From positions 1 through 26,259 of the IMG/VR virus record IMGVR_UViG_3300017697_000083: a stretch of 26,259 bases of DNA; one strand, given 5' to 3'. This DNA comes from a virus. The position numbers and the translations under genes are program-made. Shown one piece after another: positions 5,957 to 26,259 of the stretch. The stretch's first letter is position 1; the number at the start of each line of letters is the position of its first letter. Below the pieces are notes generated by a model that saw only the letters and a list, made by a program, of their open reading frames with translations, did no database searches and was not told where the DNA came from.

Positions 5957-8590
5957 CTAACCTCTCTTTCTTATTCTTGGCCTTGGATACACCAGTCCAC
6001 TTGTAGGTCTTGCTTTTGCATTTACTTTTGGAAAACTCATTCCTGTTTCAGGTCTTTGATTCTTCCACGTTAATATTTTATTTAGAGCGCCTTGTAGACT
6101 TGTAGAATCTTGCGAATCATCAGTTCCTGAATCATACATAATATCATTTGTTGCATTTGCTTCTAACCAAGCCTTTGCTTCTGCTTGATTTAACCCAGGA
6201 TTACTTTCTGCAAGTAATGCAAGTACACCACAAACTTGCGGGGCAGCCATACTTGTTCCTGATTGCTTTTGCATCGAAAACGAAGTGTTTCTTGAATCTA
6301 AAAAGTGGCCTGTGGCATCAGGCCATGCACTAACAATACCGTATCCTGCTCCATATATATTTACTGCGTTTCCACAATTTGAAAAATCTGCCTTTTTATC
6401 ATTCTTTGTTATATCCAATGAACCTACATTAATAGCATTAGGATGACTTCCGCCATTGTACGAGCATGGCCTATGAGACGGATCATTATCACTATATTGA
6501 TTACTTCCGACTCTCCAATATATTCGATTATTATAATCTTGATCACCTGATTTTGTTATCTTATGCTGTGAATTCCCCGCAGCGGTCACAAATATAATTC
6601 CATCATCAGCCGCATCATCAACATCAGCTTGCATGGCCGTGCTCCAAAACGGTACTTTAAAATCACCATTGCCATCAATTATAATACCTCTTGCCCGCAA
6701 TTCAGCATCACTTAAATCACTACCAGCATCGCCCCACTTATCATAAATGGAACCGCGGTAATTAAATACTCCAACCCCATTGACGATATCGGCAGTGTCG
6801 TCATCTTCGGCCTTTCTATAGACCCCTGATGTCCTGCCGTGGTATGATAGGTAACTATGATTTGAAATAGTAGGATTTCTTCTGCCTGTCTCTGAATTAA
6901 TTGTTTTGTTATTATGCCACTGACGAATGTAATCCCAGTACTTTAGCGCATCCAATTCACCTAAGCCATGGTTTTGTCCGAAAGGTTGAATGTTATATAT
7001 GTTTGCGTCTCTTGCCCAACCTTGTGTATTTCCTGCGGCAGTGCCAGCAACGTGTACTGCGTGTGTTTCGCCGTCATCAGAATAATCATAATTTCCATTT
7101 GCGCCATAACCTAAGGCTGAATTAAGAGAAAACCAATTAAAATGTTGAACTCTACTTCCGCCTGTTCCATCAGCGTTAACGGCAAACTCTGGGTGATTCC
7201 TTGCTGTTGTACTAATTACAGTATCAACGATTAGTACATCAACATTTTTTCCCGATGCTGTAATTGTATAATTATTTGGTGTTGCTTTTCTATCTCCATC
7301 AGAACCCCAATTTTTTCCTGTAGTAACATAACCTGATGCGCCCGCTTGTGTAGGATCGCCTGAATCACCATCTTGGAATATATTTCGTATTGTTGTTAAT
7401 GAAGGTTTACTAATTACTGGTTTAATGTGTGTGTTATGGAATGCATAACCTAATGGATTGTTTGATTGTATACCAGCTTCGGTACGCATATCATCTGTCC
7501 ATTCTGGAGAAAGACTTCCACCATCCCATAAAGCTGTATATTCAAACATACAGAAATTCAATAAGTATAAGTATTCTTTAGCTGCTACTTCAAAAGCATC
7601 TGAATCTGTTTTCCAAGCATTTGAAGGCGTGTTATAACCTGACGGATCCCATTTTCCAGCATCATATGCTTCTTCCATCGCAGCATATAAATCACCTGAA
7701 GCCCAATCACTTGCTAAGTATGCATACAGTTTTATATCGTCTGCTGGTAATCCATGCATATGAAGTGTATGCATTATGTGTTCAATAACTTCCCCTGCGT
7801 CTAAATCTCCATCACCTTGAGTACCAGATGAATTCAAATACCAAACCATATCGTTAGCAACGTGTGTATCAAATAAGTTTGTTAGGTTCCAACTAATAAC
7901 TCCTGAGTCAGTTAAGAAGTTTGGAGTATAATCACCCCCACCACCTCTTGCTACTCGTTGTAGTGTTGGTAACCCTTCGTGCCAGGTTCCAGATAAACCT
8001 TTTAGATTTCTAATCAAGTTTCTTTGGAGTGTATCACTGATTTGTGACTGGTACTGATTTGGTATTAAAAACAATTCATACATCCGAGCTATTTTTTCTA
8101 TCCACGCATCGGGTACAGCACTTTGACCACCTACAGCACCGGCGGCCATGATTCTTGTACCATTAACAGTAACTTCACGTTTGAAGAAATCACTACCATC
8201 GCCAGTCACATTTGTAATTGAGCCACTATAAAGATCAGTGGCAGGAATATCATCGCCAACTGTATGTTTATATAAACCCCAATTCTTATCTGTAGAATTT
8301 GGAATAAAGTTATCTCTTTCAAAAGTTCCGCCTTCTCCAAATCCAGTATACTCATTTAGCCCTGATTTAAGATGACTTGCTGATTTAACATCCCATACTC
8401 GAGGATCATTTTTAAGTTCAATCACTTCTTCAGGTGTTAACATATAATGAGTGTTACGACTTATTTGTCTTCTTAATTGTAAATCAACTGCTCTATCAGG
8501 AATATAAAGATCGCCACCAGGTGTTTCCATATCATTATAGAAATCATCTAGGTCTTCTTTATTATGAAGAGTGACAATATATTCTTCCAT
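5957..8590 (-). CDS. Virion-cluster subtilisin-like (S8) serine protease with inserted domain
   Basis: 877 residues. Residues 1-75 look like a protease propeptide (I9-like), starting MEEYIVTLHNKEDL with the SRNTHYMLTPEE motif known from marine phage relatives. The S8 catalytic domain lies in the C-terminal half: Asp456 in VLIVDTVI, His510 in HAVHVAGT, oxyanion Asn673 in AAGN and Ser780 in GTSMAAP. All key residues are present, so activity is expected. Between NWGLYKHT (about residue 103) and NWGSDG (about 427) lies an extra segment of roughly 310 residues that interrupts the usual layout and carries E270-H271-x-x-H274-x-x-H277-x-H279. No signal peptide or membrane segment was seen. It sits between the tail fibre and gp8, which suggests a virion component acting on host surface proteins or processing neighbouring tail proteins. 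Substrate unknown. Confidence 0.88.
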   Translation of the reverse strand: MEEYIVTLHNKEDLDDFYNDMETPGGDLYIPDRAVDLQLRRQISRNTHYMLTPEEVIELKNDPRVWDVKSASHLKSGLNEYTGFGEGGTFERDNFIPNSTDKNWGLYKHTVGDDIPATDLYSGSITNVTGDGSDFFKREVTVNGTRIMAAGAVGGQSAVPDAWIEKIARMYELFLIPNQYQSQISDTLQRNLIRNLKGLSGTWHEGLPTLQRVARGGGGDYTPNFLTDSGVISWNLTNLFDTHVANDMVWYLNSSGTQGDGDLDAGEVIEHIMHTLHMHGLPADDIKLYAYLASDWASGDLYAAMEEAYDAGKWDPSGYNTPSNAWKTDSDAFEVAAKEYLYLLNFCMFEYTALWDGGSLSPEWTDDMRTEAGIQSNNPLGYAFHNTHIKPVISKPSLTTIRNIFQDGDSGDPTQAGASGYVTTGKNWGSDGDRKATPNNYTITASGKNVDVLIVDTVISTTARNHPEFAVNADGTGGSRVQHFNWFSLNSALGYGANGNYDYSDDGETHAVHVAGTAAGNTQGWARDANIYNIQPFGQNHGLGELDALKYWDYIRQWHNNKTINSETGRRNPTISNHSYLSYHGRTSGVYRKAEDDDTADIVNGVGVFNYRGSIYDKWGDAGSDLSDAELRARGIIIDGNGDFKVPFWSTAMQADVDDAADDGIIFVTAAGNSQHKITKSGDQDYNNRIYWRVGSNQYSDNDPSHRPCSYNGGSHPNAINVGSLDITKNDKKADFSNCGNAVNIYGAGYGIVSAWPDATGHFLDSRNTSFSMQKQSGTSMAAPQVCGVLALLAESNPGLNQAEAKAWLEANATNDIMYDSGTDDSQDSTSLQGALNKILTWKNQRPETGMSFPKVNAKARPTSGLVYPRPRIRKRG

Positions 8591-8596
8591 TTTAAA

Positions 8597-10480
8597 TTAA
8601 GCCTCTAATTGTAGAATTTGTAGGGCAACTGTAATTACTGCAGCACTACCACTTTTATTTCTTACTGTAACTGGAATATTTGTTGTTGGTGTTGATTCTA
8701 AATTATAACCGATTGTTCCAGGAGATAGTTTTACTGTTTGAGCACCTGTGGTAATTACCTCTGCAATGACACCAGCATCTGGAGCTGGATCAGTACCTTC
8801 GCCTCTTGAAGCATCGGCTGTTCGGGCTGTGCCATCTGTATAGAGTGTTACCCAAGCTGCAGCTGATGTTGTAATTGTATATAAGGCGTAACCTTTAAAT
8901 CCAGTAATGTCAAGGTTAGCAACCGCACCGTTAGCAATTGAAGATGTTGCTTGTGATGGGGAAGTACGACTTGGTAATGAACCGCCACCACCGCCACCGC
9001 CTGCAGCTGCTTCAACGACAATAGTACCGGTCATGGCACCGTGAACTTGACATCGGTACTTATAGTTACCAGAAATGCTTGCTGGTATTTTCCAGAATAA
9101 AGCACCGCCTATTCCTGCATTTGCAGCTGAACCTTCGTAATAGATTCCTGAATCAAGAGCTACTAGACCGTCATTGTAATCTGCACCACCCGAAGTTTGA
9201 ATTACGAATGGGTGAGTTGCACCACCTGCACCAGTTAAATCAAATCCAACTGTCGTTCCTGCCTTTACATAAATTGTTGGGTTATCGGTTGTTCCATATT
9301 GGTCAAAACGATATGAAGAAGAACCATTATTAGTAACCTTTAATACTGTTGTAGCATTTTGGAAAGTATTTTCAAATGGTGCTTTATCTGAAATACCGGC
9401 CGGCTGTTCACTAATATCTAAATAAGTTGGAGTGAACGGTACATTTCTCCAAGTATTATCACTACCAAAGAATTTTAAAATATCATCAGATTGTGGGCTT
9501 GTAATTGTTGTGTCAGTAACGTCAGTCATAGCAACTGAGCCGCCACCGCCACCGCTAATTGTAATTGTTTTAGTTGCGCCTGATCCTGTCGCTACAACAC
9601 CTGAACCTACAAAGTTAATAGTTGTAGCCGCTGTTGCTAATGATGAACCTTCGTCTTGTATAGTAATAGCAGTACCACCGCCACCTGTTGCATCATCAAC
9701 CCAAGCAAAGTCAGAACCTGTCCAACTTAAGATTTGATCTGCAGATGCACTACTTGTATTAAGGTGTGCAGAAATATCACTTGGATTAACGCCGTCTGCA
9801 ACCCAAGCAAAGTCAGAACCTGTCCAACTTAAGATTTGATCTGCAGATGCACTACTTGTATTAAGGTGTGCAGATACATCTGAATCAGTATATGATCCGC
9901 CACCGCCACCTGATTGTGCTACCCAGTCATAATCTGAACCGTTCCAACTTAATACTTCGTTAGTACTTGCTGAACCGGTATTTAAATGAGTATCAACATT
10001 TGCATCAGCGTATGAACTGCCACCGCCTTCAACCCAACTGTAAGAACCGTTTGCGCTTGTACTTAAAACATAACCGTTAGTTTCATCGCCAATAATATTT
10101 GTATTATAAACAAACGGATTAAGAGGATCTACATAATTGAGAATTGCGCCTGCTGAAGTATCAGAAAGTAATCTTCTCCAAGTTCCATGAGCGTAATACA
10201 ATGAACCTGTGTCATGTGCATGGCCTATAGAACCATGATATGTACCTGCATTAACATTATCGAGATTTAGTTTTGTATCATATAAGAAAGATACTTTGTG
10301 TGGTTTACCTAACAAGTCTAAATTGCCGTTAATATCAAATAGATCCACTGGATTATTTGCATCTCCTAACGCAAGATAAAGCTCATTAAAATTATCGTTG
10401 GCTTTGTCGAATGCATTTCTTAACGGATCACCTGTACCGTCGTTAGCGGATGCACCGATATTAATTATTTGTTTAGACAT
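8597..10480 (-). CDS. Tail fibre-like protein with repeats and a cupredoxin domain
   Basis: 627 residues. The N-terminus carries DGTGDPLRNAFDKANDNF, common in marine phage fibre proteins and probably the virion-attachment end. Residues about 160-262 hold three copies of a HLNTxSASxxxxLSWxGSDxxWV repeat separated by Gly-rich linkers; two copies are identical at DNA level. Residues about 350-490 form a cupredoxin-like domain with candidate type I copper ligands His423 (ATHPF), Cys477, His480 and Met483 (CQVHGAM). A Gly-rich linker follows, then a C-terminal beta-rich domain of about 130 residues. The gene has AGGAAA as Shine-Dalgarno and a near-consensus late promoter box 31 nt upstream. It lies between gp7-like and S8 protease genes. 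It is likely a short baseplate fibre or decoration protein for host recognition; the exact location in the virion is inferred. Confidence 0.75.
   Translation of the reverse strand: MSKQIINIGASANDGTGDPLRNAFDKANDNFNELYLALGDANNPVDLFDINGNLDLLGKPHKVSFLYDTKLNLDNVNAGTYHGSIGHAHDTGSLYYAHGTWRRLLSDTSAGAILNYVDPLNPFVYNTNIIGDETNGYVLSTSANGSYSWVEGGGSSYADANVDTHLNTGSASTNEVLSWNGSDYDWVAQSGGGGGSYTDSDVSAHLNTSSASADQILSWTGSDFAWVADGVNPSDISAHLNTSSASADQILSWTGSDFAWVDDATGGGGTAITIQDEGSSLATAATTINFVGSGVVATGSGATKTITISGGGGGSVAMTDVTDTTITSPQSDDILKFFGSDNTWRNVPFTPTYLDISEQPAGISDKAPFENTFQNATTVLKVTNNGSSSYRFDQYGTTDNPTIYVKAGTTVGFDLTGAGGATHPFVIQTSGGADYNDGLVALDSGIYYEGSAANAGIGGALFWKIPASISGNYKYRCQVHGAMTGTIVVEAAAGGGGGGGSLPSRTSPSQATSSIANGAVANLDITGFKGYALYTITTSAAAWVTLYTDGTARTADASRGEGTDPAPDAGVIAEVITTGAQTVKLSPGTIGYNLESTPTTNIPVTVRNKSGSAAVITVALQILQLEA
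9697..9772 (-). repeat. 76-bp direct repeat, copy 2 (coding)
   Basis: These 76 bases are identical to 9799-9874, at an offset of 102 bases (34 codons). They encode the repeat unit HLNTSSASADQILSWTGSDFAWV at about residues 237-262 of the tail fibre. Perfect identity at synonymous positions points to a recent duplication or gene conversion. Confidence 0.9.
9799..9874 (-). repeat. 76-bp direct repeat, copy 1 (coding)
   Basis: This copy is identical to 9697-9772 and encodes residues about 203-228 of the tail fibre. A third, diverged copy (VDTHLNTGSASTNEVLSW) lies further upstream in the gene, at about 9917-9996. Confidence 0.9.
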
Positions 10481-10520: not shown

Positions 10521-13500
10521 TTATGAAGGCGGCGTTGTAATATCATAATCGTTTTCTAAGTACTGACCGAGTAAGTGTTTCATATCATCCGAGACAATAT
10601 GAGCAACATCTTCACGGAAGAATATTACATTTCCATAATCATAAATTCTGCTTGTTGCGCCATATAGCGGCCCTGTTGTTAATTCAAGTCCTGTATAGCC
10701 TTGTGCCTGTGCGAATCTAAACGCAGATTCTGGGGCAGGTAAGAAGTTAACTCCTACGAATGGTCCACCAGCGTAAGGAACAACAGTATCTGCTCTTCCG
10801 TTCATTTGAACAATTCTTCTTTGTGGTATTGGAGTCTTCTGCGTTGTATAACCATCCTGTGGCCATTCATCACCTGTATATAAATCATTTAATGGATACC
10901 AGAACGCACTATTTCTGTATTGGAAATCGTGTGTTTGTGATATCATACAGACGATCGTATCAACAGCAAGATCGTTAATTTCAACAGCAGCTCTTAATGC
11001 AAGTCCGCCGCCATTTGATACACCTACAATACGAATCTTAGTATTATCAACGTTTTTATATAGTTTCAGTTTGGTAATAAGTTCTTCCAACATTATAATA
11101 TCAGGACCGTTTGAAGTTTCATTTGAAACATTCCAACTATTTTCATAGCCGTCAACTCCAATACATATATGTCCTGGCAATTCACTAGAGAATTGCGTTA
11201 TCATTTGTGAACCTGATCCACCATTGCCATGTAATAAAATAGCAACTGGGAATGGTCCTGATCCTGATGGTATAGCTGCCGTTACGCTGTAATCATGGAA
11301 ACCTTGATACCAATTCTTTGTAATTGTTAGATCAGCAACGTTACCTTGAACTAAGGTTAATCCACCAGTTCCACCAGGTTCATGGTCGGCTGATACACCT
11401 GTATTATCAGCAGTAAAGTTAGTAGTACCTGCATTCAGCTCTGTTATATCAGCAACATCGAACGGAGAACCACCACCTTGGTCGTTGAATCTTCGTAAGA
11501 ATCTCGGTTTAATTGTTCCGCCTACCTTTGCCTTAAATATAAAGTCACCAAACAGTTTTGAACCTGCCAAGTGAACATTTTCTTTTAATAACTTTTCATA
11601 ATTCTGTATAGGTAAGCTTGATTTAATTTGATATGAATACTCTTGATAGAAATCACTATCTTGTACTCTTTGTCCTGAATCTAAATATTCTTGGTCGTAT
11701 ACATTAACGTCCGCATCAAATTCCCAAACAAGGTTTTCCTGTGTACTGTACCAAGCTTGTTCTTTCATTGAAGGAACAACAATATCATTCCATCTTGCCG
11801 TGATACTTGCAGCTGCACTTCTAGATCTTAGCTGCGTCAACCATATTCCAGTTGCGGCTGAGATTGCCATACCTTGTTTACTTAAATCATATATTGCGTA
11901 TCCATCTGAAGCAGTACTACTAAACCAAGCTTCGAACGCAGGAGCTAAAGTTGGATAGGATACTGTTGGATCAACTCCTATAGATATTTGACCAACTATT
12001 AAAGGTAAAGATGCACCGGGTAAATTTGTTTTTGTTGTTGTTACACTATTTTGTTTCCAACCACTTAAGTGAGAATTAGTTCCTGCCCAATATCCACTTG
12101 TTACACCTTGAGTATCTGCTTTAATAATACCGTGAGAAACGAATTCATTATTGGCTGTTCTTAATTCACCTAAACCATTTGCGAAATCAGTAATCTCTGA
12201 ATCATCTACTTCGTATTCCCAATAACCAAAACCAGAATTTAATATATTTACTTCTGAAATTTTCCCTACCGCAAATTCTGTTTCTGATTTAATCACTGCG
12301 TTGTCACCAAATCTTGCAGTTCCTAGGAAATCAGTTGCGATACTTAAAACATTTTTTACCTGGCTTGGTGCATTCTCAAATGCAATGTTTTCGTTTTTAT
12401 TTAATCCATTAATATTAAATGGAGTAATCGTAATAAATCCATCTTGTTGATTAACAGCTTTTACGACACCATTTATACCAGAAGTTACACCTCGTATTCT
12501 ATCTTTCACAGAGAACGAACCTGCATCACCAGCATCAGCAAATAAAACAACTTGATTCTTACGATCTACATTTTTAAGTAATGAATCTTGGGCAATCGCA
12601 AATACATCACTCTGATAATCGGAACCAGGATTAATATTATCAAATCCTACAATAGAACCAATTGTTAAATCTTGAATGTCGAATGCTTGATCTAAAGGAG
12701 TAGTAAGAGTAACTGGCGAAGCAGTACCTGACATTGGAGTAACTGCGCCATAATCAGCAGCATCAAGTGTAACAGATACATAAGGTAATATGACGTCAGT
12801 AATAATTGAAGCAATAGATGTATCGTTTAATGATGAAACTTTTACATCGTTTACACTTAACGTATCAGGATAAAGAGGACCTGGAGAAGAACCATTTACT
12901 GATACTAATTGATTTGCTGTAAGAGATAAGTCAATTGTTATTTGAGGTTGAGCTACACCGTCAATTGGAAGTCTAACTGTTGTCAGTGTAACATTGTCTG
13001 TGAATCCATCCACAGCGTATGCCGCGTCAAGTTTAATTCCTATTGAAGATAAATTTTGTCCAATAATAATACCAGTACGACCTGCCGTATCTTGTAATGT
13101 TTCACCTATAACAAATTCTTGATTAAAACCATTCTCACTGTTATCAAGAATAATAGATTGGTCTGAAACAAGTAATCTTGTATTGTCAATCGTATACCCA
13201 TAACCACCATCTTCTAAATCGTATTTAATTTGACCTGATGCTGTATCTGTAACTGCTGTGACAATTGCTTTACCTGCATTACCATCTTTCTGATGTACAT
13301 TAAGAACTTCACCAATTTCTCTACCTGCGAGATTCTTTCTTCTTGCTCCTACATCTGATCTATCAACAATAGTAAACTTTGAAAGAGATCCATTTGTTTT
13401 ACCAAACTGTACCACTTCACCGCTTATGTTACAAAGAATATCTTCATACTTGTTAAATGTACCTTGAATACCATCAAGATATATGACAGGTGTTTTAATA

Positions 13501-14069
13501 CCGTTTAGAATAAAGAAGTTAATTGATCTTACCGATGCCTTTGCGCCAGTTACCGAACCTTCAATGTTACGAGCTAATAAATCAAGATACTCGTATTCCT
13601 TTCCAGTTTTTGAGGTAAAGAAATTATTGTTTGGAAACATCTGTAAATAAGTACCTTGCTTCCATGTAGAGTCAGATACCTTTTGCATCTTTTCAGCGGG
13701 ATACACAATTTCAATTTCAAACTCTTGATAGAATATAGCAAAGAATAATTCTATACCGCGGGCAGTACCTTTTGCTCGATATAAGTCAAGTATATTTTTA
13801 ACAATAAATTTAACAAGATCTGCTTTAAGTGGAAGATCAGCAAGAAACTTTTTCTTAAATAGTATAATCATACTATTCATTGTAGTATCAATATCTCTCG
13901 TTTCAAATAAACGTCTTGCTTGATAGATATGCTGATTCTCTTGAGTTTCAGACCACTTATAATACTCTTCGACTAATTTAACAAGCTCAGGTCCATCTTC
14001 CCTGTAAATAGCGGGGAACTGATTCTTAATGAAAAGCGACAGATTTTTTTGTATATCACCCTGAGGCAT
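10521..14069 (-). CDS. gp7: gp7-like baseplate wedge protein fused to an alpha/beta-hydrolase
   Basis: 1182 residues. The N-terminal part contains LYRAKGTARGIELFF at 97-110 followed by FEIEIVYP, matching the T4 gp7 C-terminal motif FYSTKGIEASYKFLF followed by VEIEIE, so this is a gp7-type wedge protein. Residues about 820-850 (NVHLAGSKLFGDFIF) close the usual family region. A segment of about 120 residues (roughly 672-795) looks inserted inside it. After a Gly-rich linker near 870, residues about 925-1175 form a complete alpha/beta-hydrolase domain: oxyanion motif LLHGNGGSG near 946, nucleophile Ser1018 in GVSNGG, Asp1094 in GRADTVVPY and His1157 in VAHIV. It resembles PHB depolymerase/feruloyl esterase-like enzymes (LpqC type). 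The gene lies 15 nt after gp6, consistent with the T4 6-7-8 order. The ester substrate is unknown; host surface polymers are the likely target. Confidence 0.78.
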   Translation of the reverse strand: MPQGDIQKNLSLFIKNQFPAIYREDGPELVKLVEEYYKWSETQENQHIYQARRLFETRDIDTTMNSMIILFKKKFLADLPLKADLVKFIVKNILDLYRAKGTARGIELFFAIFYQEFEIEIVYPAEKMQKVSDSTWKQGTYLQMFPNNNFFTSKTGKEYEYLDLLARNIEGSVTGAKASVRSINFFILNGIKTPVIYLDGIQGTFNKYEDILCNISGEVVQFGKTNGSLSKFTIVDRSDVGARRKNLAGREIGEVLNVHQKDGNAGKAIVTAVTDTASGQIKYDLEDGGYGYTIDNTRLLVSDQSIILDNSENGFNQEFVIGETLQDTAGRTGIIIGQNLSSIGIKLDAAYAVDGFTDNVTLTTVRLPIDGVAQPQITIDLSLTANQLVSVNGSSPGPLYPDTLSVNDVKVSSLNDTSIASIITDVILPYVSVTLDAADYGAVTPMSGTASPVTLTTPLDQAFDIQDLTIGSIVGFDNINPGSDYQSDVFAIAQDSLLKNVDRKNQVVLFADAGDAGSFSVKDRIRGVTSGINGVVKAVNQQDGFITITPFNINGLNKNENIAFENAPSQVKNVLSIATDFLGTARFGDNAVIKSETEFAVGKISEVNILNSGFGYWEYEVDDSEITDFANGLGELRTANNEFVSHGIIKADTQGVTSGYWAGTNSHLSGWKQNSVTTTKTNLPGASLPLIVGQISIGVDPTVSYPTLAPAFEAWFSSTASDGYAIYDLSKQGMAISAATGIWLTQLRSRSAAASITARWNDIVVPSMKEQAWYSTQENLVWEFDADVNVYDQEYLDSGQRVQDSDFYQEYSYQIKSSLPIQNYEKLLKENVHLAGSKLFGDFIFKAKVGGTIKPRFLRRFNDQGGGSPFDVADITELNAGTTNFTADNTGVSADHEPGGTGGLTLVQGNVADLTITKNWYQGFHDYSVTAAIPSGSGPFPVAILLHGNGGSGSQMITQFSSELPGHICIGVDGYENSWNVSNETSNGPDIIMLEELITKLKLYKNVDNTKIRIVGVSNGGGLALRAAVEINDLAVDTIVCMISQTHDFQYRNSAFWYPLNDLYTGDEWPQDGYTTQKTPIPQRRIVQMNGRADTVVPYAGGPFVGVNFLPAPESAFRFAQAQGYTGLELTTGPLYGATSRIYDYGNVIFFREDVAHIVSDDMKHLLGQYLENDYDITTPPS

Positions 14070-23876: not shown

Positions 23877-24656
23877 ATGCCATTTAACATTAGTGAATTT
23901 AAAAGTCAGTTCGATAGATATGGCGGCCCAGCTATGTCCAATCTATTTTCTGTCCAAGTAACACTACCACCTCAGCTTCGCGCAAGAATACAACCAACAG
24001 AAAATAATGCTTTTAATATGAGTCATACGTTTACTTTCTTTTGTTATAAAATGGATATACCTGCGATTGGTATTAATACATCTGAAGTAGCATATACAGG
24101 ACAAATGAAAAGGAAGCATCCAACAAGAGTTCAGAATCCAGGCCCTATGAGTGCATCTTTCTTTGTTGATTCTGATCATCATGTTTTAAGGTTCTTTCAC
24201 GCTTGGGCTCAAAACATTATAAATTATAATAAAGGCGATGGTGCATTTGCCGAAGTAGACGGTAAACTTCCACATGAAGTTGGATTTAAGAAAGACTTTG
24301 CATGTGATATGATTATTAAACATTATTCAACAGATTCTTATCCTGACGTATATTACGAAACTAAACTACAAGGAGTATGGCCAGTATCTATTGGAGCATT
24401 GAGTTTAGATTGGTCAACAAAAACGGCTCTTTCATTAGATGTTCAGTTTACAGTTACTGATATGTCATTCGATGGAGCAAAGACAGGAAAAACGAATAGC
24501 AGATTATCGAGAGCAAGCGGCTTGTTAGATATCCTTGGAGATATCGCAGGCTTCGGAGACGCGGTAAGAGGAACATTAAAAAGCGGGAAACCGACAAGCA
24601 TACAGGATGCTATCAATAAATTAGATAGACTTGGTAATGCATTTGGAAAAATATAA
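23877..24656 (+). CDS. gp54: gp54-like baseplate tail tube initiator
   Basis: 259 residues, against 320 in T4 gp54. The N-terminus (FNISEFKSQFDRYGGPAMSNLFSVQV) parallels the T4 gp54 opening of a short helix followed by a strand. The middle has the tail tube fold pattern, with YKMDIPAIGINTSEV, PGPMSASFFVDSDH, and GVWPVSIGALSLDWSTK leading to VQFTVTDMSF. The C-terminus is a helical, low-complexity tail (SRLSRASGLLDILGD, ending DRLGNAFGKI) as in T4 gp54. gp54 sits on gp48 and seeds tail tube polymerisation. It starts 3 nt after the upstream stop. Its partner gp48 is on the other strand in this phage. Confidence 0.75.
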   Translation: MPFNISEFKSQFDRYGGPAMSNLFSVQVTLPPQLRARIQPTENNAFNMSHTFTFFCYKMDIPAIGINTSEVAYTGQMKRKHPTRVQNPGPMSASFFVDSDHHVLRFFHAWAQNIINYNKGDGAFAEVDGKLPHEVGFKKDFACDMIIKHYSTDSYPDVYYETKLQGVWPVSIGALSLDWSTKTALSLDVQFTVTDMSFDGAKTGKTNSRLSRASGLLDILGDIAGFGDAVRGTLKSGKPTSIQDAINKLDRLGNAFGKI

Positions 24657-24687: not shown

Positions 24688-25389
24688 ATGGCACTACCAA
24701 AAATTAACTTACCAATCTCGGAATTGATTTTACCGAGTACAGGTGAAAAAACTAAATATAGACCTTTTTCTGTAGCGGAAGAAAAGATCTTGTTAGTTGC
24801 ACAAGAAGCGGATGACGCGGAACAAGAAGTATTAGCAATGAAACAAATCATTTCTAATTGCTTAATTGAAAAAGATGTTGAAGAACTTGCATTATTTGAT
24901 TTTGAATATGTTTATTTAACATTAAGAGCACGTTCAGTCGATAACTTGGCTAAGTTCAAAATTAAAGATCCTGACACGGATGAAGAAATTGAATTAGAAC
25001 TTGATATGAGAGAGATTGATATTGCTCGAGATGAAACTCATACAAATGAAATTAAAGTAAACGATGAGTATACTCTGTTTCTAAAGTATCCATCTATTAA
25101 TGAATTCATAAAGATTGTTGGAATGAATAATGACGATCCTTTAGTTAACTATTTTGTAATGATTTCTTGTTTAGATACATTAGCTTCAGAAGATGAAGTA
25201 CATAGTTTTAAAGATTATAGTGATGAAGATATTGAGGCCTTTATGGATAGTCTCGGTGGAGATGTTATTCGAGGAATTACTTCGTTCTTTGAAACAATGC
25301 CGAAGATACGAAAGGAATTACCATATACAAATAGTGAAGGTAAAGAAAATACGTTTGTCGTGGAGGGCACCCGTAGTTTTTTTATCTAA
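24688..25389 (+). CDS. gp26: gp26-like baseplate hub / tail assembly chaperone protein
   Basis: 233 residues in the zero frame. The opening (LPKINLPISELILPSTGEKTKYRPFSVAEEKILL) and acidic helical body (DADDAEQEVLAMKQII-like run near 45-60, then KIKDPDTDEEIELELDM) match the T4 baseplate protein family of gp26, which is counted as a hub assembly component. AGGAG at 24677-24681 gives a strong start, 6 nt before ATG. The last sense codons are AGT TTT TTT ATC before TAA at 25387. This forms a T_TTT_TTT slippery heptamer followed by a hairpin, so part of the ribosomes may shift to -1 and add 59 residues. A gene just ahead of the tape measure with this arrangement is typical of tail assembly chaperones. 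Confidence 0.75.
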   Translation: MALPKINLPISELILPSTGEKTKYRPFSVAEEKILLVAQEADDAEQEVLAMKQIISNCLIEKDVEELALFDFEYVYLTLRARSVDNLAKFKIKDPDTDEEIELELDMREIDIARDETHTNEIKVNDEYTLFLKYPSINEFIKIVGMNNDDPLVNYFVMISCLDTLASEDEVHSFKDYSDEDIEAFMDSLGGDVIRGITSFFETMPKIRKELPYTNSEGKENTFVVEGTRSFFI

Positions 25390-25413
25390 GCCTTAGCCAT
25401 ATAACGTTAGGGC
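25377..25413 (+). promoter_or_regulatory. Probable programmed -1 ribosomal frameshift site
   Basis: The heptamer T_TTT_TTT at 25377-25383 is in register with the gp26-like frame. After a 6-nt spacer, 25390-25397 (GCCTTAGC) pairs with 25406-25413 (GTTAGGGC) in an 8-bp stem that includes two G-U pairs, with an 8-nt loop. The zero-frame stop TAA (25387-25389) lies in the spacer. Slippage leads into a -1 frame that stays open to 25559. Confidence 0.72.
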
Positions 25414-25562
25414 ATTACTATCAAATGATTTTCTCCATGGCACAACACCACAAATGGTCTGTGTCCGAAATTGAGGCTATGATGCCTTTTGAAAGAGATC
25501 TTTACTTTAGTATGCTAGTACAATGGATAGAAGAACAGAATGAACAGCGAAAACAGGGTTAA
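25383..25562 (+). CDS. -1 frame extension of the gp26-like gene (gp51/chaperone T-like segment)
   Basis: After slipping at 25383 the ribosome reads 59 codons to a stop at 25560-25562. The added segment contains HYYQMIFSMAQHHKWSVSEI, then MMPFERDLYFSMLVQWIEEQ and a charged end. The pattern of a helix with MPFERDxY and a W-[IL]-x-E-[EQ] run is what I associate with the second partner (T part) of tail assembly chaperones and with gp51-like hub catalysts in T4-like phages. An independent start is unlikely: the ATG at 25425 has no Shine-Dalgarno. The fusion would be 232 + 59 = 291 residues. The stop is 5 nt before the tape measure ATG. Confidence 0.68.
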   Translation, partial: YLSLSHITLGHYYQMIFSMAQHHKWSVSEIEAMMPFERDLYFSMLVQWIEEQNEQRKQG

Positions 25563-25567
25563 TATAA

Positions 25568-26259
25568 ATGGCTAAAACAACACCAAAGAGCAAAGAGCTA
25601 AGTCCAGAGACTCAGAGTATAGTTAATCGTCTTATCCGTGAAGGAGAGCTTGTAAGGAACGACGGCAAGCATTCGATTAAAGAAATTAGAATTGACCTTG
25701 GGAAATTTACCGATGCTTTTGCTGCAATTAAAATAAGCTCTGAACAAACAGCTAAAGTCTTAACGGATTCTTGGGAAGGAAACGAAGCACTACTCAAAAA
25801 TATTGATGAAAGCTTAGTTGGTTTAAATGACACAGAAAAAGATGCTGAACTGGCAAGAAGAGCTCAGGATAAAAAGGATGCAATCGCAAATAAAGAAAAT
25901 AAGTCTGAATCTAGTATCGCCGCACAATCTTTAAAGTTAAGTCTTATGAGTGGATTCAAAGGTCTAAAAGATGGATTCATGGCAATAAAGAAAGATCCGT
26001 GGGGTTCGTTATTAAACATTGGCAAGTGGGCAATTATAATACCAGTATTAGCAGGTGCAATTAAAGGATTGCTTGATAAGATGTTTGGCGAAGGCGAAAT
26101 GGGCAAATTCTATGACAGAATTTCAAACAGCCCGTTTGCTAAAATTGCTATGGAATATCCAATAGCAACTTTGCTTGGAAGTTTAGCTGCTATGGCCGGT
26201 CTTAAGTGGGCCTCACTGTATGGAACTATGATGCTTGCTGCAAAAACTATGGGTGTTAA
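25568..26259 (+). CDS. Probable tail tape measure / length determinator (N-terminal part)
   Basis: The frame is open from ATG at 25568 to the window end, giving 230 residues without a stop, so the C-terminus is missing. Residues 1-140 are charged and helical (QSIVNRLIREGELVRND, DAELARRAQDKKDA). Residues about 153-166 (WAIIIPVLAGAIKGLL) and 197-229 (Ala/Leu/Gly/Met-rich) are hydrophobic segments, as found in tape measure proteins. AGGG about 9 nt upstream is a weak Shine-Dalgarno. In T4-like phages this slot is occupied by gp29, which sets tail length and sits with the hub, and placement right after a tail chaperone pair is the general rule for tape measure genes. Function is inferred mostly from context. 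Confidence 0.6.
   Translation, partial: MAKTTPKSKELSPETQSIVNRLIREGELVRNDGKHSIKEIRIDLGKFTDAFAAIKISSEQTAKVLTDSWEGNEALLKNIDESLVGLNDTEKDAELARRAQDKKDAIANKENKSESSIAAQSLKLSLMSGFKGLKDGFMAIKKDPWGSLLNIGKWAIIIPVLAGAIKGLLDKMFGEGEMGKFYDRISNSPFAKIAMEYPIATLLGSLAAMAGLKWASLYGTMMLAAKTMGV

Follow-up and report, generated by a model that had tools for sequence, protein, structure and literature searches.

The DNA analysed here (the window) comprises positions 1-26,259 of IMG/VR virus record IMGVR_UViG_3300017697_000083, read on one strand. The source phage is probably uncultivated and marine, judging from the type of record and from its nearest named relatives, which are seawater single-cell and cyanophage records. 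Near the end of the window, a gp26-like gene closes on a T-rich heptamer from which a second open frame continues towards the next gene. The features of this locus are as follows.

23877-24656, plus strand: tail tube-like gene (phrog_45, E 5.1e-37), just upstream of the gp26-like gene
24688-25389, plus strand: gp26-like gene, encoding the putative short form (TAC-N) of 233 residues, plus stop (PF12322, phrog_150)
25377-25383, plus strand: candidate slippery heptamer T_TTT_TTT, in phase with the zero frame
25384-25389, plus strand: 6-nt spacer, within which lies the zero-frame stop TAA (25387-25389)
25383-25562, plus strand: -1 frame, the predicted C-terminal (TAC-C, gp51-like) part of a long form, with 59 codons (to 25559) and a stop at 25560-25562
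25390-25413, plus strand: predicted 8-bp stem (25390-25397 with 25406-25413) with an 8-nt loop, a possible stimulator kept in the nearest relatives only
25568-26259, plus strand: start of the next gene, a probable tape measure gene by position, cut by the window end

An earlier note on this DNA had described the heptamer, the spacer, the stem, the 59-codon -1 frame, the 5-nt gap before the next gene and a fused product of 291 residues, and the coordinates of all of these agree with the sequence. The zero frame ends in AGT TTT TTT ATC TAA, and the first T of the heptamer occupies a third codon position, which fits the X_XXY_YYZ pattern.

The zero-frame product matched PF12322 (T4_baseplate, Pfam) with an E-value of 3.9e-48 and a score of 164.5 against a cut-off of 24.5 bits, and phrog_150 with an E-value of 1.7e-54; by sequence it is a member of the gp26 family. 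It is less than 60% identical to gp26 in each of 597 matched phage records, the best of which reaches 39%. The AlphaFold2 model (pLDDT 87.4, pTM 0.80) gave the HK97 tail assembly chaperone 2ob9 as its top solved chain (Foldseek rank 1, E 0.73). VIA-align placed the same pair in the middling range of the tool (Z 7.7, 82 residues, rmsd 4.1), with 3fgx tied at Z 7.6 and the following chains at Z 5.6 and 2.7. This match spans the first third of the model only and is weak when taken alone, so a tail chaperone fold for the short form is suggested by the model rather than proven. A search of solved-structure sequences with the gp26 profile (E up to 1) returned three matches, none of them a tail chaperone, and the best was MtrB at E 0.016.

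Profile searches of the genes upstream also matched head closure (phrog_218) and DNA end protector (phrog_429) families, and the order head closure, DNA end protector, tail tube is annotated in phiM12 as well. The next gene starts with an ATG at 25568, 5 nt after the -1 frame stop, and in the relative L010 the downstream gene is an open frame of at least 606 aa. Tape measure profiles did not match the next gene of the window, L010 or L012, and its probable identity as the tape measure gene is based on where it lies. Such profiles do match a gene of about 565 aa in Cr30 and phiM12, located one small gene beyond the tail.

Three other genes, all on the minus strand of the window, were recorded. 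The 877-residue protein encoded at 5957-8590, in the baseplate/fibre region, carries a subtilisin-like Peptidase_S8 domain at residues 446-815 (E 2.1e-25). The gene at 8597-10480 encodes a gp9/10-like fibre connector (PF07880, phrog_677), and a stretch of its product, which by eye we take to resemble a copper-binding cupredoxin domain, had no Pfam match at E up to 0.01. The product of 10521-14069 is baseplate wedge-like (phrog_17744, E 1.8e-90); its C-terminal residues 899-1161 match phrog_2576 of unknown function and by eye resemble an alpha/beta hydrolase (LLHGNGGSG, GVSNGG).

Related loci and coding constraint in the -1 frame

Homologous loci were collected as near relatives and do not form a random sample. 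The first set had 84 loci, made up of 80 viral contigs with a similar gp26 (the top 80 of 181 found) together with the window, Syn19, AG-345-E15 and phiM12, and an in-phase TTTTTTN lies just 5' of the stop in 82 of them. Fourteen more divergent isolate records, eight picked via the tail query and six via gp26, contributed 11 more. This gives 93 of 98 loci with an in-phase TTTTTTN at the gp26 end, which form 43 clusters at 85% identity, the clusters containing only loci with TTTTTTN. Two further scans, of the best 80 of 596 loci by gp26 query and the best 80 of 598 by tail query (some contigs being common to both sets), found the in-phase heptamer in 80/80 and 80/80. The comparison of homologues proposed in the earlier note thus showed that relatives keep both the heptamer and the two frames.

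The -1 frame read from the heptamer (25377-25559) matched phrog_634, "baseplate hub assembly catalyst", with an E-value of 1.6e-23, and joining 232 residues of the zero frame to its 59 codons predicts a fused product of 291 residues. The tail model is helical (pLDDT 85.9). Searched alone, it had no meaningful match in a viral structure library (best E 1.2), and a second look in the PDB returned two chains with Z below 4. A Pfam match of the tail to bilin reductase (E 0.048) scored 13.8 bits where the cut-off is 31, and it was rejected as a chance hit.

Constraint was evaluated by counting synonymous and non-synonymous differences between the window and its relatives over the 53 codons after the heptamer. 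In the -1 frame, the synonymous/other counts against near relatives were 7/0 (L010), 22/6 (L011) and 10/3 (L012), while the other two frames showed the reverse pattern for the same pairs. Against more distant relatives the counts were 18/18 (L020), 15/23 (L022) and 17/27 (L023), values that resemble those of a gp26 control stretch and are far better than those of the other frames. The substitution pattern indicates that the -1 tail is under coding constraint. Among the loci with the heptamer, the -1 frame is broken at +47 in one (L019), and tails shorter than 50 codons in two others (L122, L174) both lie at contig ends.

A constrained tail could also be expressed as a separate gene, with translation starting inside the locus at an ATG, GTG or TTG close to the gp26 stop or beyond it, and it is annotated in this way in S-PM2, P-HM1, phiM12 and nt-1, among others. 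A start codon 3-5 codons after the heptamer start is present in 15 of the 43 clusters, which fits such a gene, but in 22 there is no start codon anywhere in tail codons 1-14, and an upstream start within the open -1 frame was found in just two. In an alignment of 29 tails, residues 1-2 are fixed by the heptamer and a consensus LSHxSL begins at residue 6, so that in the 22 start-less clusters conservation sets in, from about that residue, ahead of the first start. In the further scans, the tail match began at residue 5 in L196 and at residue 4 in L236, and the tail start was set 4 and 3 codons earlier, respectively. By eye, a ribosome-binding site is missing at the customary spacing before the first ATG of the window's tail, and T4 gp51 crosses the junction from its gp26-like domain, as described below. 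We consider a separately started gp51-like protein improbable, and a tail reached from the gp26 frame remains the preferred reading.

The candidate slippery heptamer

By cluster (n = 43), the heptamer reads TTTTTTC in 20, TTTTTTT in 17, TTTTTTA in 5 and TTTTTTG in 1, and TTTTTTC is also found in 57 of the 80 further gp26-query loci. The distance from the heptamer start to the zero-frame stop is 7, 10 or 13 nt in 7, 33 and 3 clusters, respectively. In the window, runs of seven T's or A's are strongly under-represented, with three seven-T runs on the two strands together against a mean of 24 in dinucleotide shuffles. A run of this kind at the gp26 end, kept in phase across relatives, exceeds what chance would give.

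The five loci without TTTTTTN among the 98 are L079, L040, L088, L095 and L097. In L079 the site is cut by the contig end. In L040, fetched with gp26 residues 1-215, the slippery site is missing at 1760-1905 along with the greater part of the tail; by eye the gp26 end is joined directly to the final residues of an L037-like tail, and we take this locus to be a deletion or misassembly. L088 is a Campylobacter phage in which tail and body share the same frame. The other two are Vibrio phages, BX-1 (L095:3180-3430, Ackermannviridae) and K355 (L097:3080-3340), which have an open -1 tail behind gp26 ends reading GTTTTTC and CTTTTC, and these may use a slippery site other than T_TTT_TTN. Four of the 80 tail-query loci (L229, L243, L252 and L253, around 1501) have the heptamer with a zero-frame stop 31 nt from its start, outside the 7-13 nt range, giving a longer short form.

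Seven T's might also provoke slippage of RNA polymerase, and the run at the site would suit this explanation of how the two frames are joined. However, just six T's precede a C, A or G in 26 of the 43 clusters, and the X_XXY_YYZ phase is kept in 93 of the 98 loci and in all 80 further gp26-query loci. Because tandem slippage of the ribosome needs this phase and polymerase slippage does not, its retention favours the ribosome, and slippage during transcription is slightly less credible again than a separate gene. The third alternative, which the earlier note had named as the main competing explanation, is a sequencing or assembly indel that breaks one continuous frame; homopolymers are error-prone and the window is an IMG/VR virus record, but this reading is excluded for practical purposes because exactly seven T's are found in 10/10 contigs (L001-L010) whose gp26 is 96-100% identical to that of the window, and the interruption of the run in the 26 clusters and the same frame relation in isolate genomes such as S-PM2, P-HM1, Syn19, phiM12 and Cr30 also stand against it.

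The downstream stem

The stem has eight pairs, two of which are G-U. The earlier note had proposed a folding prediction for the RNA after the heptamer; for 25384-25433, the structure of lowest predicted energy is this stem (-10.9 kcal/mol, z -2.71, with 2 of 200 shuffles as good). It is kept in 20/20 of the nearest sequences (the window and L001-L019), where one pair is compensatory (C-G to U-A) and another alternates between G-U and G-C. The covariation in this near clade is thin, with 7 distinct rows and 23 of 500 shuffles reaching the score.

Beyond the near clade, the same 8-bp stem was not predicted. Strong but different stems were predicted in S-PM2 (L096), L073, P-HM1 (L099) and Cr30 (L092). 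The downstream fold reached a z of -2 or lower in 16 of 43 clusters, leaving 27 that did not, compared with 29 of 386 control windows inside gp26. The downstream folds are stronger than the controls (Mann-Whitney p 0.0008), a comparison in which kinship is handled by the 85% clustering only and three of the 43 clusters belong to the window's clade. The stem was therefore rejected as a conserved element of the family, being limited to the near clade. The heptamer is the element common to the family, and stems look lineage-specific. The earlier note had called the arrangement a complete module; this holds family-wide for the heptamer, and the stem belongs to the nearest relatives.

Comparison with T4 and other tail chaperone systems

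In T4, gene 26 and gene 51 are separate genes, as the earlier note had said, and lie on opposite strands. The 282 positions of phrog_150 are matched by T4 gp26 over 14-235 and by T4 gp51 over 13-280, the C-terminal part included. With hhalign, the fused profile aligned to T4 gp51 over residues 5-243, across the junction (E 4.4e-12), and to T4 gp26 as far as the junction (E 1.5e-19). A 12-kb stretch of T4 holds 56 frames of at least 50 aa; of these, the fused profile gave E-values under 0.1 for gp26 and gp51 alone, and the tail profile for gp51 alone. On these alignments, T4 gp51 is more than the tail part, having a gp26-like domain ahead of the tail. T4 gp26 thus resembles the short form of the window and T4 gp51 the whole long form. 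T4 makes one short and one long form from two genes, whereas the relatives of the window have a single slippery gene. The T4 gp26 gene ends in GAG TTC TTT GAG TTA CTA TAA (EFFELL), without a slippery heptamer.

It is very probable that the window locus encodes a T4-like tail assembly chaperone pair of the G/GT-like type, produced via a -1 frameshift. The sequences show both frames and the heptamer, all of them conserved, a tail under coding constraint and a resemblance to T4 gp26 and gp51; from these we infer that the ribosome slips, how often it does so and what the products do in tail assembly. Most ribosomes would stop at TAA 25387-25389 and release the 233-residue short form (TAC-N). A minority would slip back one base on T_TTT_TTT and read on in the -1 frame to give the long form (TAC-NC) of 291 residues, a step that the stem at 25390-25413 perhaps favours in the window's lineage. 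The helical C-terminal part of the long form would be the counterpart of the end of T4 gp51. Like lambda G and GT, both forms would be expected to bind the tape measure protein and to assist the assembly of tail tube subunits. The earlier note had proposed a G/GT-type pair consisting of a short gp26 and a fused gp26-gp51-like product, and this is supported, with the next gene a tape measure gene by position. The locus is real, well supported and ordinary for its family.

More tentatively, and with slightly less than even confidence, U_UUU_UUN alone might carry an ancestral T4-like frameshift, with stems gained and lost by lineage. The ratio of short to long form may then be tuned by lineage, and the T4 line would have swapped slippage for two copies on opposite strands. 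The switch from one slippery gene to the two genes of T4 becomes testable.

Seventeen records were inspected out of the 597 gp26-bearing and 598 tail-bearing phage records; 15 of them are annotated and combine gp26 with a shifted tail, and in none is a joined gene annotated. The loci collected here add support for a proposed frameshift that would run through cyanophages and other T4 relatives and has been missed by annotation. Labels such as "gp51" and "baseplate hub assembly catalyst" in these records probably name a fragment of the long chaperone.

In lambda G/GT and the HK97-type chaperones, -1 slippage occurs at the end of the short form, in a gene just 5' of the tape measure gene. The HK97 chaperone is also the top solved-structure match of the window's gp26 model. 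Among T4-like phages, frameshifting is reportedly conserved in several groups, with T4 itself using separate genes 26 and 51.

The T4-like tail chaperones of Vladimirov, Gautam and Davidson (2022, Virology 566:9), a paper whose title stresses a mechanism other than frameshifting, belong, as far as its title and the papers citing it indicate, to the same gene family and occupy the same place as those of the window. Two papers cite this work, the PRFect paper (PMC10885494) for T4-like phages with one short and one long fused chaperone gene and no frameshifting, and the paper on phage Adele (PMC12846349) for polyT slippery sites in T4-like TAC-N genes. As far as these citing papers show, the link between T4 hub factors and the G/GT system that the earlier note had proposed is already in print. 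What is added here is another lineage, the conservation counts and the comparison of stems. According to PMC12846349, Vandenendeviridae such as phage Adele have a T-rich slippery site, as the window does, and their -1 extension is annotated as a hypothetical gene in public records; the motif given there is GTTTTT, compared with T_TTT_TTN for the window and its relatives.
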